Assembly (NCBI GenBank): GCA_017744365.1
Contig: JAGIBL010000001.1
Span: 186,001 to 250,000 of the forward strand
DNA: 64,000 bases
Reading direction: 5' to 3'
DNA from: Nocardioidaceae bacterium
Lineage (GTDB): Bacteria > Actinomycetota > Actinomycetes > Propionibacteriales > Nocardioidaceae
Shown here: positions 25,752 through 63,062 of the stretch, in pieces
Position numbering within the stretch: position 1 is the first letter of the stretch
Layout: every line of letters starts with the position of its first letter
Position numbers and translations under genes: made by a program
The notes under the pieces: generated by a model
Told to the model about the DNA's origin: nothing
The model's input: only the letters and a program-made list of their open reading frames with translations
The model's database searches: none

Positions 25752-25793
25752 ATGCGTTTCGAGATTCTTGTACGCACGCGACGCGTGAGCTGA
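25752..25793 (+). CDS. ilvB leader peptide MRFEILVRTRRVS
   Basis: A 13-codon ORF with consecutive Ile-Leu-Val codons (ATT CTT GTA), the three end products of the pathway, placed 100 nt upstream of ilvB. CGAGGGG lies about 14-20 nt upstream. Low Ile, Leu or Val should stall ribosomes at codons 5-7. The Arg/Val/Ser codons that follow lie within a 9-bp RNA stem (25779-25787 with 25811-25819), so ribosome position would change folding. Leader peptides before ilvB are known in Actinobacteria; this sequence fits the pattern. Confidence 0.85.
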   Translation: MRFEILVRTRRVS

Positions 25794-25819
25794 GGCTTCG
25801 GCCCCACGCCCGCGCGTCG
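25779..25819 (+). promoter_or_regulatory. Leader-overlapping stem of the ilvB attenuator
   Basis: CGACGCGTG (25779-25787) pairs with CGCGCGTCG (25811-25819), nine pairs including one G-U. The 5' arm lies in the last codons of the leader peptide, so a ribosome reaching the stop would melt it while one stalled at Ile-Leu-Val would not. The mechanism is inferred. Confidence 0.6.
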
Positions 25820-25820
25820 A

Positions 25821-25857
25821 CCCCTCGTTGCCGATCCGGCCGAGGGGTTTCTTGTTG
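25821..25857 (+). terminator. Intrinsic terminator of the ilvB attenuator
   Basis: CCCCTCG (25821-25827) pairs with CGAGGGG (25841-25847). The loop can extend the stem with GCCG/CGGC around ATC. A T-rich run TTTCTTGTT follows directly. It lies between the leader peptide and ilvB, where premature termination would act. Confidence 0.88.
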
Positions 25858-47212: not shown

Positions 47213-47360
47213 CGCTGACCTGGCGCAGAAGTACATGTGTGAACGCTGACCTGGCGCAGAAGTACACGTGTGAGCGCTGACCTGGCGCAAAGGTGCGAGT
47301 ACTACTCGCACCTTTGCGCCAGGTCAGCACAATTACGTGCACCTTTGCGCCGGGTCAGCG
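47213..47360. repeat. Five-unit repeat array with a 26-bp perfect palindrome
   Basis: Units begin CGCTGACCTGGCGCA at 47213, 47244 and 47275 (31-bp period). Two inverted units follow at 47303-47328 and 47335-47360. The arms 47276-47301 and 47303-47328 are exact complements over 26 bp with a single central base. The last unit contains the stop codon of the patatin gene. The array fills the whole gap between two convergent genes. Confidence 0.9.
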
Positions 47361-48179
47361 CCAGAGGGTGGTGACGTCGGGCGCGAGGGCGAGGCCCTGG
47401 GCGAGGCCGGCTCGGGCAGCTGCGGGGCGCTTGCCGGGGTCGAGCGGGTTGTGGCCGATCGCGTGGGACGCCTGATGGTCCGGGCTGATGGCGAGGGTGT
47501 GCGCGGCACCGGTGCGGGCGAGCTGGCGGCTGAGCAGGTGCTCGCGCGAGGGCGCTTGGGTCTGCGGGGCCAGCACCACGACCCGCTCCGCGCCCGCGAC
47601 CAGGTCGGCGTTCGCGGGGGAGCGGATGCCGCCGTCGACGTACGTGGTGTCGTCGATGCGTACCGGCGGCCACGCGAACGGCAGCGCGCAGCTGGCCGAG
47701 ACCGCGTCCAGCAGGCTGACCCCCGAGTCCTTGTCGAAGACGACGAACGCGCCCGCGTCCACGTCGACCGCGGTGATCCGCAGGTCCCGGTCCGGCCAGT
47801 CCGCGTCCCCGAGCCGGGCGCGGATCGCCTTGCTGCGGTCCAGTGAGCCCACCGGGTGCGCGTGCTCGGCGGCCGTGCCGACCTTGCGCCACTTCGCCGC
47901 CTGGTCCCCGGGACGGGCCAGCATGATGCCGAGCCGGAGCAGCGTGGTCGGTCCGAGGTGGCCGGCGACCTCCTCGGTCGGAGGCGTGCACTGCTCGTCG
48001 TACGCGGTCTCCAGCGCGCTCGTGGTGACCCGCGCGCCCACCGCTGCACCTGCCGAGGTGCCGACGACGACGTCGGCGCCGGTCAGGTCCACCCCCGCCC
48101 GCCGGAGTCCTTCCAGCACACCGAGCTCCCAGGCGACCCCGGTGACACCGCCACCGCCGAGCACGAGCGCACGCGTCAC
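47355..48179 (-). CDS. Patatin-like phospholipase
   Basis: A 274-residue lipid acyl hydrolase. The oxyanion loop is LVLGGGGVTGVAWELGVL, the nucleophile elbow VVGTSAGAAVG (Ser), and the dyad Asp is in YVDGGIRSPANADL. No signal peptide, so intracellular. GTG 48179 has GAGGAGAA upstream. The substrate is a lipid ester of unknown type. Its TGA lies within the neighbouring repeat array. Divergent from the cimA leader. Confidence 0.92.
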   Translation of the reverse strand: MTRALVLGGGGVTGVAWELGVLEGLRRAGVDLTGADVVVGTSAGAAVGARVTTSALETAYDEQCTPPTEEVAGHLGPTTLLRLGIMLARPGDQAAKWRKVGTAAEHAHPVGSLDRSKAIRARLGDADWPDRDLRITAVDVDAGAFVVFDKDSGVSLLDAVSASCALPFAWPPVRIDDTTYVDGGIRSPANADLVAGAERVVVLAPQTQAPSREHLLSRQLARTGAAHTLAISPDHQASHAIGHNPLDPGKRPAAARAGLAQGLALAPDVTTLWR

Positions 48180-48251
48180 GGGTTCTCCTCGGTGAGTCGG
48201 ATCGTGGGACGGCGGTCCCGCGGAGCGAGATCATGTGGCACACTCGCGGGT

Positions 48252-48281
48252 ATGCCTCAGGCAGCGATCATTATCGACTAG
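48252..48281 (+). CDS. cimA leader peptide MPQAAIIID
   Basis: A nine-codon ORF ending in three consecutive isoleucine codons (ATC ATT ATC), then Asp and TAG. It lies 90 nt upstream of citramalate synthase, the entry step of threonine-independent isoleucine synthesis. Immediately after the stop come a GC-rich hairpin and an intrinsic terminator. This is the expected structure of an isoleucine attenuator. No strong Shine-Dalgarno is seen; initiation may be near-leaderless. Confidence 0.8.
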   Translation: MPQAAIIID

Positions 48282-48305
48282 CGCGACGGAACCCTTCCGC
48301 CGCGC
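48281..48305 (+). promoter_or_regulatory. Upstream hairpin of the cimA attenuator
   Basis: GCGCGACGGAA (48281-48291) pairs with TTCCGCCGCGC (48295-48305) with one A-C mismatch and a CCC loop. It starts at the last base of the leader stop codon, so a ribosome terminating there would prevent it and one stalled at Ile codons would allow it. It could be a pause or control hairpin. Confidence 0.6.
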
Positions 48306-48306
48306 C

Positions 48307-48337
48307 AACCTCTCGTCCACCGAGAGGTTTTTTTGTT
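48307..48337 (+). terminator. Intrinsic terminator of the cimA attenuator
   Basis: AACCTCTCG (48307-48315) pairs perfectly with CGAGAGGTT (48321-48329) around TCCAC, followed by seven T in a row. One of the clearest intrinsic terminators in the window; it lies before, not after, a gene. Confidence 0.92.
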
Positions 48338-48370
48338 GCCTGGCCCAGCCCCGAACAGAGAGATGAGCAG

Positions 48371-49945
48371 ATGACCGCCCCGGACGCCTTCCACGTCTAC
48401 GACACCACGCTGCGCGACGGCGCCCAGCAGGAGGGGCTCAACCTCTCCGTCGCGGACAAGCTCGCCATCGCGCGGCACATCGACGGGCTCGGCGTCGGCT
48501 TCATCGAGGGCGGCTGGCCAGGGGCGAACCCGAAGGACACCGAGTTCTTCGCGAAGGCCAAGCAGGAGCTCAAGCTCCAGCACGCCCAGCTTGCTGCCTT
48601 CGGCGCCACCCGCCGGGCCGGCATGAAGGCGGCCGACGACCCGCTCGTGGCCGCGCTACGCGACTCCGGCGCCGGGGTGGTGACCCTGGTCGCCAAGTCC
48701 CACGACCGGCACGTGGAGCTGGCGCTGCGGACCACCCTGGAGGAGAACCTCGCGATGGTCCGCGACACGGTCGCGCACCTGACCGCCGAGGGGCAGCGGG
48801 TCTTCCTGGACGCCGAGCACTTCTTCAACGGCTACCGGGACAACCGCGACTACGCCCTCGAGGTGCTCCGGGCCGCCTTCGAGGCCGGTGCCGAGGTGGC
48901 CGCCCTGTGCGACACCAACGGCGGGATGCTGCCGACCTGGGTCAGCGACGTCGTGCACGACGTGGTCACCGCGACCGGTGGCCGGATCGGCATCCACGCG
49001 CACAACGACACCGGCTGCGCGGTGGCGAACAGCCTGGCCGCGGTCGACGCCGGTGCCACCCACGTGCAGGGCTGCATCAACGGGTACGGCGAGCGCACCG
49101 GCAACGCCGACCTCATCAACGTGGTCGCCAACCTCGAGCTGAAGATGGACCGCCAGGTGCTCCCGGCCGGCTTGCTGCGCGACGCCACCCGGATCGCGCA
49201 CGCCGTCGCCGAGGTCACCAACGTGCCGCCGGCCTCCCGGCAGCCGTACGTCGGGGTCTCGGCGTTCGCGCACAAGGCCGGGCTGCACGCCAGTGCGATC
49301 AAGGTCGACCCGAACCTCTACCAGCACATGGATCCCGAGGGCGTCGGCAACGACATGCGGCTGCTGGTCTCGGACATGGCCGGGCGGGCGTCCATCGAGC
49401 TCAAGGGCAAGGAGCTCGGCTTCGAGCTCAGCCCCGAGCTGATCGTCGCGGTGACCGCGCGGGTCAAGGAGATGGAGCTGCGCGGCTACACGTTCGACGC
49501 CGCCGACGCCTCCTTCGAGCTGCTGCTCGCCGAGGAGGTCGCCGGGGAGCGCCCGTCGTACTTCAGCGTCGAGTCCTGGCGGGTCATCACCGACTCCGCC
49601 CCCGGTGCCGAGGCCGGCTCCGAGGCCACCGTCAAGCTGGTCGCCGGCGGCTCCCGGCTGGTCGTGGTCGGCGAGGGCAACGGCCCGGTGAACGCGCTCG
49701 ACCACGCGCTGCGGCAGGCGATCGAGCAGCTGTACCCGGAGATCGTGAAGTTCGAGCTGATCGACTACAAGGTGCGCATCGTGGACCAGGGCCACGGCAC
49801 CGACGCGATCACCCGGGTGCTCATCGAGACCTCCGACGGGCAGTCGTCCTGGGTCACCGTGGGGGTCGGGCACAACGTGATCGAGGCGTCGTGGGAGGCG
49901 CTGATCGACGGGCTCACCTTCGGCCTGCGCCGGCACGGGGCCTGA
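48371..49945 (+). CDS. cimA: Citramalate synthase
   Basis: It condenses acetyl-CoA with pyruvate to (R)-citramalate, giving 2-oxobutyrate without threonine. The 524-residue length and pattern match the CimA subfamily: catalytic start YDTTLRDGAQQEGLNL, FIEGGWPGANPKDTEFF, metal-binding HAHNDTGCAVAN and the C-terminal LeuA dimer/regulatory domain (VRIVDQGHGTDAITRVLIET) for isoleucine feedback. ATG 48371. It is preceded by a triple-Ile leader peptide and terminator. LeuB, IlvBN, IlvC, IlvD and IlvE to complete the pathway are all in this window; leuCD are not. Confidence 0.95.
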   Translation: MTAPDAFHVYDTTLRDGAQQEGLNLSVADKLAIARHIDGLGVGFIEGGWPGANPKDTEFFAKAKQELKLQHAQLAAFGATRRAGMKAADDPLVAALRDSGAGVVTLVAKSHDRHVELALRTTLEENLAMVRDTVAHLTAEGQRVFLDAEHFFNGYRDNRDYALEVLRAAFEAGAEVAALCDTNGGMLPTWVSDVVHDVVTATGGRIGIHAHNDTGCAVANSLAAVDAGATHVQGCINGYGERTGNADLINVVANLELKMDRQVLPAGLLRDATRIAHAVAEVTNVPPASRQPYVGVSAFAHKAGLHASAIKVDPNLYQHMDPEGVGNDMRLLVSDMAGRASIELKGKELGFELSPELIVAVTARVKEMELRGYTFDAADASFELLLAEEVAGERPSYFSVESWRVITDSAPGAEAGSEATVKLVAGGSRLVVVGEGNGPVNALDHALRQAIEQLYPEIVKFELIDYKVRIVDQGHGTDAITRVLIETSDGQSSWVTVGVGHNVIEASWEALIDGLTFGLRRHGA

Positions 49946-57345: not shown

Positions 57346-57417
57346 TGGGATATGGTGTAATTGGCAGCACGACTGATTCTGGTTCAGTTAGTCAAGGTTC
57401 GAGTCCTTGTATCCCAG
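57346..57417 (+). tRNA. tRNA-Gln (anticodon CTG)
   Basis: A 72-nt cloverleaf: acceptor TGGGATA/TATCCCA, D arm around TGGTGTAATTGGCAGCA, anticodon stem ACTGA/TCAGT with loop TTCTGGT (CTG, reading CAG) and T arm AAGGTTCGAGTCCTT. The 3' CCA is not encoded. Substrate of GltX plus GatCAB. Confidence 0.95.
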
Positions 57418-57475
57418 CGAGTAGGGACGATTTGGTCTGTCGTTCGTGCAAACGATAGAGTCACGTCTCGCTCAA

Positions 57476-57551
57476 GCCCCCGTTGTGTAGTGGCCTAGCA
57501 CGCCGCCCTCTCAAGGCGGTAGCGCCGGTTCGAATCCGGTCGGGGGTACCA
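57476..57551 (+). tRNA. tRNA-Glu (anticodon CTC)
   Basis: Acceptor GCCCCCG/CGGGGGT, anticodon stem CCGCC/GGCGG with loop CTCTCAA (CTC, reading GAG), T arm GCCGGTTCGAATCCGGT. The CCA end is encoded (57549-57551). Followed at once by a strong terminator. Confidence 0.95.
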
Positions 57552-61297: not shown

Positions 61298-63062
61298 TCT
61301 GCGGGAGTCGCTGCCGGGCTTCCGGCGCCTCTTCCACTACGTGCGTCCGCACCTCCCGCGCGAGCGCGGCATGCTCGTCCTCGGGTCGGTCGCGCTGCTC
61401 TCCGAGGTCGGGTGGCGGCTGCTCGAGCCGTGGCCGCTGAAGTTCGTCATCGACGCCCTGGTCACCTCCAGCGGCGGCAGGATCGCCGCCAAGCAGCCCG
61501 AGAACGTGACCGTGCTGCTGCTCGCCGCGAGCGCCGGCCTGCTGGTGATCACGCTGCTGCGCGCCGGCTCCTCGTACGTCGGCACGCTGGCCTTCTCGCT
61601 CTCCGGGAGCCGGTTGCTCAGCGCCGTACGGGCCGACCTGTTCGCCCACCTGCAGCGACTGCCGATGGCCTACCACGACCGGGCCCGCACCGGGGACCTG
61701 GTCACCCGGGTGACCAGCGACGTGGGACGGCTCAAGGAGGTCGTCGTCACCGCGGCGCTGCCGCTGGTGTGCAACGTGCTGACCCTGGTCTCGATGATCG
61801 GGGTGGTGACCTGGCTCGACTGGCGGCTCGGCCTGGTGATGCTGCTGGTCTTCCCGGCCTTCTTCGTGACCAGCACCCGGCTGGGCCGCCGGATCAACAG
61901 CGTCTCCCGGCTGCAGCGGCACGCGGAGGGATCGCTGGCCTCGCACGCGACCGAGTCGCTGGCGGCCATGCGCGTGGTGAAGTCGTACTCGCTCGAGCAG
62001 ACCATGCAGGAGACGTTCACGGTCAGCAACCAGAAGTCGCTCAAGGACGGCGTCAAGGCCAAGCGCCTCTCCGCCGGGCTGGAGCGCAAGACCGACGTGC
62101 TGGTCGGGATCGCGACCTCGGTGGTGCTCTTCGCCGGCGCCCAGCGCGTGCTCGCCGGCGCGATGACCCCCGGTGAGCTCGTCGTCTTCCTGACCTACCT
62201 CAAGGCCGCCTTCAAGCCGCTGCGCGACGTCGCGAAGTACGTCGGGCGGATTGCCCAGGCGGCCGCCTCCTCCGAGCGCATCGTCGACGTCCTCGAGGAG
62301 GTCCCGACCGTCGTCGACACCGAGGGTGCGATGCCGGCGCCGCGACTGTCCGGCGACATCGAGCTGCGCAACGTATGGCTCGAGCACACCCCCGGGCACC
62401 CGGCGCTGCGGGGAGTGGACCTGAAGATCCCCGCGGGCCAGCGGATCGCGGTCGTCGGGCCTTCGGGCGCCGGGAAGTCGAGCCTGGCGATGCTGCTGTC
62501 GCGGCTGTGCGACCCGGTACGCGGCCAGGTCTACCTCGACGGCATCGACCTACGGAACCTGACCGTGCGCTCGGTGCGCGACCAGACCGCGGTCGTGCTG
62601 CAGGAGAGCGTGCTGTTCGCGACGACGGTCGCGGAGAACATCGGCTACGGCACCACCGACCCGACGCCCGACCAGGTCCGTGCCGCTGCCGTGCTGGCCG
62701 GGGCCGACGGCTTCATCTCCCGGTTGCCGGAGGGCTACGACACCGTGGTCGGGGAGCGCGGCGCGACCCTCTCAGGAGGCGAGCGCCAGCGGATCGCGAT
62801 CGCCCGCGCCGCGATGCGGCGGGCTCCGATCGTCGTCCTCGACGAGGCGATGACCGGGCTGGACCCGCGCACCGAGACCGAGGTGCACGCGGCGCTGCAC
62901 CGGCTGACCGAGGGCTGCACCACCGTGGTCATCAGCCACGAGCCCGCCGCCGCGCTCGCCTGCGACCGGGCCGTGTGGATCGAGGACGGCCGGATCGTCG
63001 ACGACGGCCACCCGCGGATGGTGCTCGCGCGGCGGGTCGGGGGCACCCATGCCGCGGGCTGA
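61275..63062 (+). CDS. ABC exporter with fused membrane and ATPase domains
   Basis: A 595-residue half-transporter that would act as a homodimer. Six membrane segments lie within residues 35-320; the coupling-helix region YHDRARTGDLVTRVTSDV is typical of MsbA/lipid exporters. ATPase: GPSGAGKSSLAMLLSR, signature LSGGERQRIAIARAA, Walker B IVVLDEAMTGLD, switch His VVISHEP. It is encoded inside the glycosyltransferase cluster and probably exports the glycosylated product. ATG 61275. Confidence 0.94.
   Translation: MARRKPRDLRESLPGFRRLFHYVRPHLPRERGMLVLGSVALLSEVGWRLLEPWPLKFVIDALVTSSGGRIAAKQPENVTVLLLAASAGLLVITLLRAGSSYVGTLAFSLSGSRLLSAVRADLFAHLQRLPMAYHDRARTGDLVTRVTSDVGRLKEVVVTAALPLVCNVLTLVSMIGVVTWLDWRLGLVMLLVFPAFFVTSTRLGRRINSVSRLQRHAEGSLASHATESLAAMRVVKSYSLEQTMQETFTVSNQKSLKDGVKAKRLSAGLERKTDVLVGIATSVVLFAGAQRVLAGAMTPGELVVFLTYLKAAFKPLRDVAKYVGRIAQAAASSERIVDVLEEVPTVVDTEGAMPAPRLSGDIELRNVWLEHTPGHPALRGVDLKIPAGQRIAVVGPSGAGKSSLAMLLSRLCDPVRGQVYLDGIDLRNLTVRSVRDQTAVVLQESVLFATTVAENIGYGTTDPTPDQVRAAAVLAGADGFISRLPEGYDTVVGERGATLSGGERQRIAIARAAMRRAPIVVLDEAMTGLDPRTETEVHAALHRLTEGCTTVVISHEPAAALACDRAVWIEDGRIVDDGHPRMVLARRVGGTHAAG

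Follow-up and report, generated by a model that had tools for sequence, protein, structure and literature searches.

How the expression of cimA is controlled is the question raised by the short region preceding this gene in the window, i.e., the whole 64,000-nt stretch of a Nocardioidaceae bacterium genome that was analysed here. The gene is the first one of the threonine-independent isoleucine route via citramalate and lies behind a minute open reading frame with a run of isoleucine codons, followed by two hairpins (Table 1). The earlier note had described a nine-codon ORF (MPQAAIIID), a hairpin starting at its stop codon and a perfect 9-bp stem with seven T, all placed just 5' of cimA, and direct reading of the sequence bore out each of these parts. 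The ORF consists of the codons ATG CCT CAG GCA GCG ATC ATT ATC GAC TAG (48252–48281), the G of UAG being the first base of hairpin 1 (48281–48305), and two of the seven T belong to the perfect stem (48307–48329). The downstream gene starts at 48371, and its product scored 629.8 bits against TIGR00977 (cut-off 450).

Table 1. Features of the cimA leader region, its neighbourhood and the ilvB leader of the same window.
Feature	Position	Strand	Remarks
Extended -10 promoter element TGG-CACACT	48236..48244	+	from sequence; 7 nt 5' of leader start codon
Leader peptide ORF MPQAAIIID* (nine codons), ATGCCTCAGGCAGCGATCATTATCGACTAG	48252..48281	+	read from sequence
Ile codons of leader	48267-48275	+	stop UAG at 48279-48281
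Hairpin 1, GCGCGACGGAACCCTTCCGCCGCGC	48281..48305	+	10 bp, one mismatch (A x C, 48286 x 48300)
Intrinsic terminator hairpin, AACCTCTCG-TCCAC-CGAGAGGTT	48307..48329	+	perfect 9-bp stem; 1 nt from hairpin 1
T7 tract of terminator	48328..48334	+	first two T paired in stem; then GTTGCC
cimA, (R)-citramalate synthase, regulated gene	48371..49945	+	TIGR00977 equivalog match
Patatin-like gene	47355-48179	minus	separates ilvE from cimA
ilvB leader, MRFEILVRTRRVS* (ATT CTT GTA)	25752-25793		element spans 25752-25850

Folding of the 86-nt element yields −33.7 kcal/mol, compared with −19.4 ± 2.7 kcal/mol for dinucleotide shuffles (z −5.3; 0/200 shuffles). Hairpin 1, whose lower stem GCGCG/CGCGC is near-invariant among homologues, has a folding energy of −14.2 kcal/mol, and the terminator one of −12.7 kcal/mol, with the T run in addition. 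The latter is the sole terminator-like site found within 2 kb. A longer ORF (48233–49945), in frame with cimA, was rejected as the gene, the leader and the terminator lying inside its first 46 codons; it was also disfavoured by the TIGR00977 match, located entirely inside the protein starting at 48371.

The leuB and ilvE genes are found just upstream of cimA, with a patatin-like gene of the opposite strand between ilvE and cimA. The closest named cimA proteins (90–91% identical) come from Nocardioides marmoriginsengisoli and Marmoricola MAGs. An ilvA-type threonine deaminase is also encoded in the genome, so both entry routes to isoleucine exist. A tandem of tRNA-Gln(CTG) and tRNA-Glu(CTC) at 57346–57551 is unrelated to the cimA element.

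The cimA loci of Propionibacteriales were gathered by protein homology alone and their upstream sequences were then parsed for the leader layout. A total of 113 distinct upstream regions, taken from Nocardioidaceae and other families of Propionibacteriales, had the same arrangement of Ile codons, hairpin 1 and terminator. Among the loci failing the parser, L016 and L024 carried slightly diverged elements, and no element was found at L027 and L067 (identical to each other), L064, L097 and L113; two more were unusable, one of them at a contig end. The last Ile slot belonged to the parsing pattern, which makes its 113/113 circular, and the set was not picked by the covariance model R1 described below. 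Counted back from the last slot, the second was occupied by Ile in 106 of the 113 loci and the third in 77, with the neighbouring slots varying freely. In the class-level alignment, positions 1 and 2 of the Ile codons were nearly fixed and position 3 was T or C; a third base varying only between these two indicates selection on the amino acid. Loss of the Ile codons in related genomes had been named in advance as the finding that would speak against an attenuator, and they proved to be kept in Nocardioidaceae, in further families and class-wide.

The UAG codon was located one codon past the last Ile in 98 of the 113 regions. In leaders lacking UAG (L028, L081, L075, L102, L106, L107, L111 and L112), the peptide continues into hairpin 1, e.g., as IIIDRRAGH, and in the Aeromicrobium locus (L102) the stop was lost with the Ile codons retained. 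Since the Ile codons and their spacing to hairpin 1 are kept despite the lost stop, the Ile-to-hairpin distance is the conserved feature.

An in-frame start codon was found 4–12 nt 3' of the motif [TC]ANNNT in 108 of 112 loci (at 6–7 nt in 96 of them), 94 having TGN, whereas only 30 of the 230 out-of-frame starts used as a control followed the motif at such spacing. Because of this promoter-to-start spacing in the relatives, the prediction that the leader mRNA is leaderless, with transcription starting at the leader start codon, is well supported. In this respect, the cimA leader is like the known actinobacterial leader peptides (PMC8079986).

Covariance model R1 was built from 43 of the Propionibacteriales elements. 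In the whole genome of the organism itself, it gave a single strong match (79.8 bits) at cimA; a second match at 61545–61618 (17.7 bits, E 0.25), well inside apparent coding sequence, was taken as chance. R1 matched in 234 of 346 genomes sampled from the whole class Actinomycetes, namely in 226 of the 274 cimA-bearing genomes versus 8 of the 72 without cimA, with 48 genomes having cimA only. All but three of the class-level matches that were fetched lay immediately 5' of cimA, whose identity reached as low as about 60%; the remaining three preceded ilvB, recognised by the encoded acetolactate synthase, in other families. Ile codons were present in the leader at all 50 of the more distant cimA loci examined, a count which is partly selected since the Ile columns are part of R1. 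The element is class-wide and present in most Actinomycetes carrying cimA, and such conservation excludes a chance origin.

Of 18 model-negative cimA loci, one (L263) had a diverged element. In most of the model-negative loci checked, cimA followed ilvE directly, the promoter was situated at the cimA start codon or the upstream region was unrelated. In small-genome actinobacteria (L257–L260, L264, L265 and L268–L270), cimA abuts or overlaps the apparent ilvE end (TAATG or TGATG) and no attenuator was seen; directly after that end, cimA lacks a separate promoter on which an attenuator could act.

The covariation of stems anticipated upstream of cimA in relatives was found for both hairpins. In 70 class-spanning sequences, 96.0% of pair cells were standard and double-sided changes were counted in 152 pair cells versus 38.3 ± 6.5 in shuffles (0/500), statistics that are partly built in by the fitting of this alignment to the model. 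When the partner was shifted by one to three columns, pairing fell to 33–65%. RNAalifold run on a MAFFT alignment of the first 43 sequences recovered both stems and had double changes at 7 pairs, and 7 of the 10 modelled pairs of hairpin 1 changed on both sides in the set of 70. The four basal pairs of hairpin 1 (GCGC/GCGC; 48281–48284 with 48302–48305; columns 18–21 with 110–113 of alignment A2) were almost invariant class-wide. The rest of the stem covaries freely, and the invariance of GCGC is more than pairing alone demands. At the sixth position, the A x C mismatch of hairpin 1 was shared by 7 of the 43 sequences of alignment A1, others having U-A, A-U or C-G.

The geometry of the element was also constant. 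Hairpin 1 of the homologues starts at most 3 nt from the first base of the stop codon and is separated from the terminator by 0–2 nt in 113/113 and 70/70 homologues, with its own length ranging from 22 to 76 nt. Its loop is free in length and sequence, and no conserved unpaired core was seen. The sequence GTTGCC or GTTTGCC after the U tract (48330–48342) is often conserved in relatives, also at ilvB.

Antitermination was assessed by folding the transcript as it stands before the 3' arm of the terminator is made, the pairing of the 5' arm with upstream sequence being scored. With a stalled ribosome, E. coli thrL, hisL and leuL gave pairing probabilities of 1.00, 0.69 and 0.60 and gains of 13.7, 6.0 and 4.2 kcal/mol, respectively. 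For the 113 cimA leaders, the stalled mean was 0.28 with a gain of 0.74 kcal/mol, and similar values were obtained with no ribosome (0.25) or with the ribosome at the stop codon (0.30). No strand complementary to the conserved terminator 5' arm was seen in hairpin 1, and equilibrium folds of the cimA leaders revealed no structural exchange between the fed and starved state, so the coupling of a stall to the terminator is not apparent from the RNA itself. Equilibrium folding with a ribosome mask was itself dropped as a test of antitermination because the E. coli thrL control keeps its terminator too. Two other pairings were discarded. The conserved GTTGCC 3' of the U tract, considered as a partner for the linker or for the 3' arm of hairpin 1, exists only once the terminator is passed; an interaction between the loop of hairpin 1 and the terminator 5' arm, noticed by eye in some ilvB leaders, is not conserved. 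By nearest-neighbour folding, no classical antiterminator is detectable at the cimA leaders. As modelled, the element acts like a leader-peptide attenuator yet lacks a detectable antiterminator, one of the defining parts of the classical form.

Conserved Ile codons matching the end product, a retained start codon with a leaderless promoter, from which translation is predicted, and an intrinsic terminator between the leader and cimA are all features by which an attenuator is recognised. Judged from these sequence features, the element is very probably a ribosome-mediated transcription attenuator that tunes cimA to the supply of Ile-tRNA. By analogy, the leader would sense charged tRNA-Ile, and low isoleucine would be expected to raise cimA. 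When isoleucine is plentiful, the ribosome would pass the Ile codons and depart, hairpin 1 would close flush on the terminator and transcription would end; when isoleucine is scarce, the ribosome would stall at the Ile codons and RNA polymerase would continue into cimA.

The leading edge of a ribosome lies about 12 nt past the first base of the codon in its A site. If this codon is the last Ile, which starts 8 nt before hairpin 1, the ribosome would cover the first 4–5 bases of hairpin 1, the near-invariant GCGC. Once hairpin 1 is opened at its base, the abutting terminator may close too slowly or too weakly. This version, in which stalling weakens the terminator through the opened hairpin 1 next to it, is the preferred one, although its chance is put at somewhat less than even. 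The stall position relative to hairpin 1 depends on the codon holding the ribosome: with the first of the three Ile codons in the A site, hairpin 1 would be just free, so the effect of hairpin 1 may be of either sign. It also speaks against this reading that a terminator of −12.7 kcal/mol plus a T run should be able to form even without hairpin 1.

In the classical form of attenuation, a stalled ribosome would free a strand of hairpin 1 for pairing with the terminator 5' arm, perhaps in a pseudoknot or a weak interaction missed by folding. E. coli leaders work in this way, the ilvB leaders of C. glutamicum (PMC11857589) and M. tuberculosis (PMC13236596) were modelled so and the constancy of GCGC hints at a role beyond simple pairing. 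However, the stalled pairing of the cimA leaders (0.28, 0.74 kcal/mol) hardly differs from the unstalled one and contrasts with the 0.60–1.00 of the E. coli controls, hairpin 1 has no visible complement to the terminator 5' arm and its loop varies in length and sequence, which makes the classical form improbable here. The near-invariant GCGC pairs in otherwise variable stems, together with GCGC-like bases in the ilvB leaders of the same genomes, could alternatively point to a protein reading the hairpins (e.g., NusA, Rho or a dedicated RNA-binding protein recognising the GCGC-based stem), with the ribosome position only gating access. Such a reader is considered unlikely, as no candidate protein was identified and the strict conservation of Ile codons beside the hairpin needs a translating ribosome.

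An untranslated metabolite- or tRNA-binding RNA, i.e., an isoleucine riboswitch or a T-box, might be suspected from a compact conserved RNA lying 5' of an isoleucine gene, the more so as ileS is under T-box control in Actinobacteria (PMC1262725). This reading is hardly credible against codons that vary at third positions only, a retained start codon with a leaderless promoter, a hairpin 1 loop free in sequence and length and the lack of any conserved unpaired core. In addition, the Rfam covariance search gave no match at the gathering score, and the three matches below this threshold were unrelated and lay on the opposite strand. Intergenic terminators are common, and the one found here could be a constitutive insulator of cimA accompanied by an accidental ORF, but it sits between a promoter and the gene of that promoter, the upstream gene (47355–48179, minus) runs the opposite way and the Ile codons are kept class-wide; next to no probability is attached to it.

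The putative ribosome-mediated attenuator has its nearest counterparts at ilvB. In the ilvB leader of the window, a hairpin (about 25779–25819) is followed by a directly adjacent terminator, ACCCCTCG...CGAGGGGTTTCTTGTTGC. Hairpin 1 abuts the terminator (0–2 nt) in 14/14 ilvB leaders of the relatives, and no antiterminator was detected in the ilvB leaders of the relatives, that of the window included, in the pre-terminator folding test. Attenuation without an antiterminator may be class-wide, a sensor hairpin stacked on the terminator setting the termination efficiency and serving cimA and, in several families, ilvB; this generalisation is a tentative one, held with rather less than even confidence. 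The cimA element shares a short leaderless ORF, branched-chain codons, a hairpin and a U-tract terminator with the actinobacterial ilvB leaders (Seliverstov et al. 2005, PMC1262725; PMC8079986), among them that encoding the ilvL leader peptide of Streptomyces lividans, MRTRILVLGKRVG (PMC8079986). It differs from them by preceding cimA, by having an Ile run (the third slot sometimes Val) instead of mixed Ile/Leu/Val codons, by a shorter leader peptide and by a stop codon placed usually exactly at the base of hairpin 1.

Like the ilvBNC attenuator of Corynebacterium (ilvB-II motif; PMC10272879, PMC11857589), the cimA element comprises a (nearly) leaderless leader and two hairpins, the second being an intrinsic terminator, but the mutant-supported antiterminator overlapping the terminator there has no equivalent found at cimA. 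Branched-chain codons in a uORF are shared with the ilvB1 attenuator of M. tuberculosis, whose premature termination was shown by 3'-end mapping and which, in contrast to cimA, was modelled with an antiterminator and concerns a different gene (PMC13236596). E. coli thrL, leuL and hisL similarly combine a run of control codons for the pathway product with a terminator before the gene; unlike the cimA leaders, they give an antiterminator in the pre-terminator folding test. The LEU element of actinobacterial leuA also places a leader peptide 5' of a gene whose enzyme belongs to the same superfamily; it has leucine codons, a pseudoknot and Shine-Dalgarno pairing and no terminator, while the codons at cimA are those of isoleucine (PMC1262725).

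In their survey of actinobacterial amino acid genes, which contains no citramalate synthase, Seliverstov et al. (2005, PMC1262725) found leaders or attenuators at trp, cys, ilvB, leuA, leuS and trpS, with T-boxes at ileS. The S. lividans leader-peptide list (PMC8079986) has no cimA entry. For ilvB, antiterminators were modelled in Corynebacterium (PMC10272879, PMC11857589) and M. tuberculosis (PMC13236596). A literature search combining citramalate synthase with leader peptide or attenuator, its coverage mostly outside subscription journals, retrieved no described cimA attenuator. The statement of the earlier note that no cimA attenuator of such form had been described agrees with these literature and Rfam searches.

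Leader-peptide control is predicted for a gene of the citramalate route, for which none was found in print before. For engineering, the element marks a site where the isoleucine feedback on cimA could be removed. The finding also bears on a puzzle posed by Seliverstov et al. (2005, PMC1262725), who noted that some components expected of an attenuator are absent from several actinobacterial leader peptides and that S. coelicolor ilvB and leuA mutants were not classical in behaviour. The constant abutting geometry of hairpin 1 and the terminator offers a concrete candidate mechanism for such leaders.
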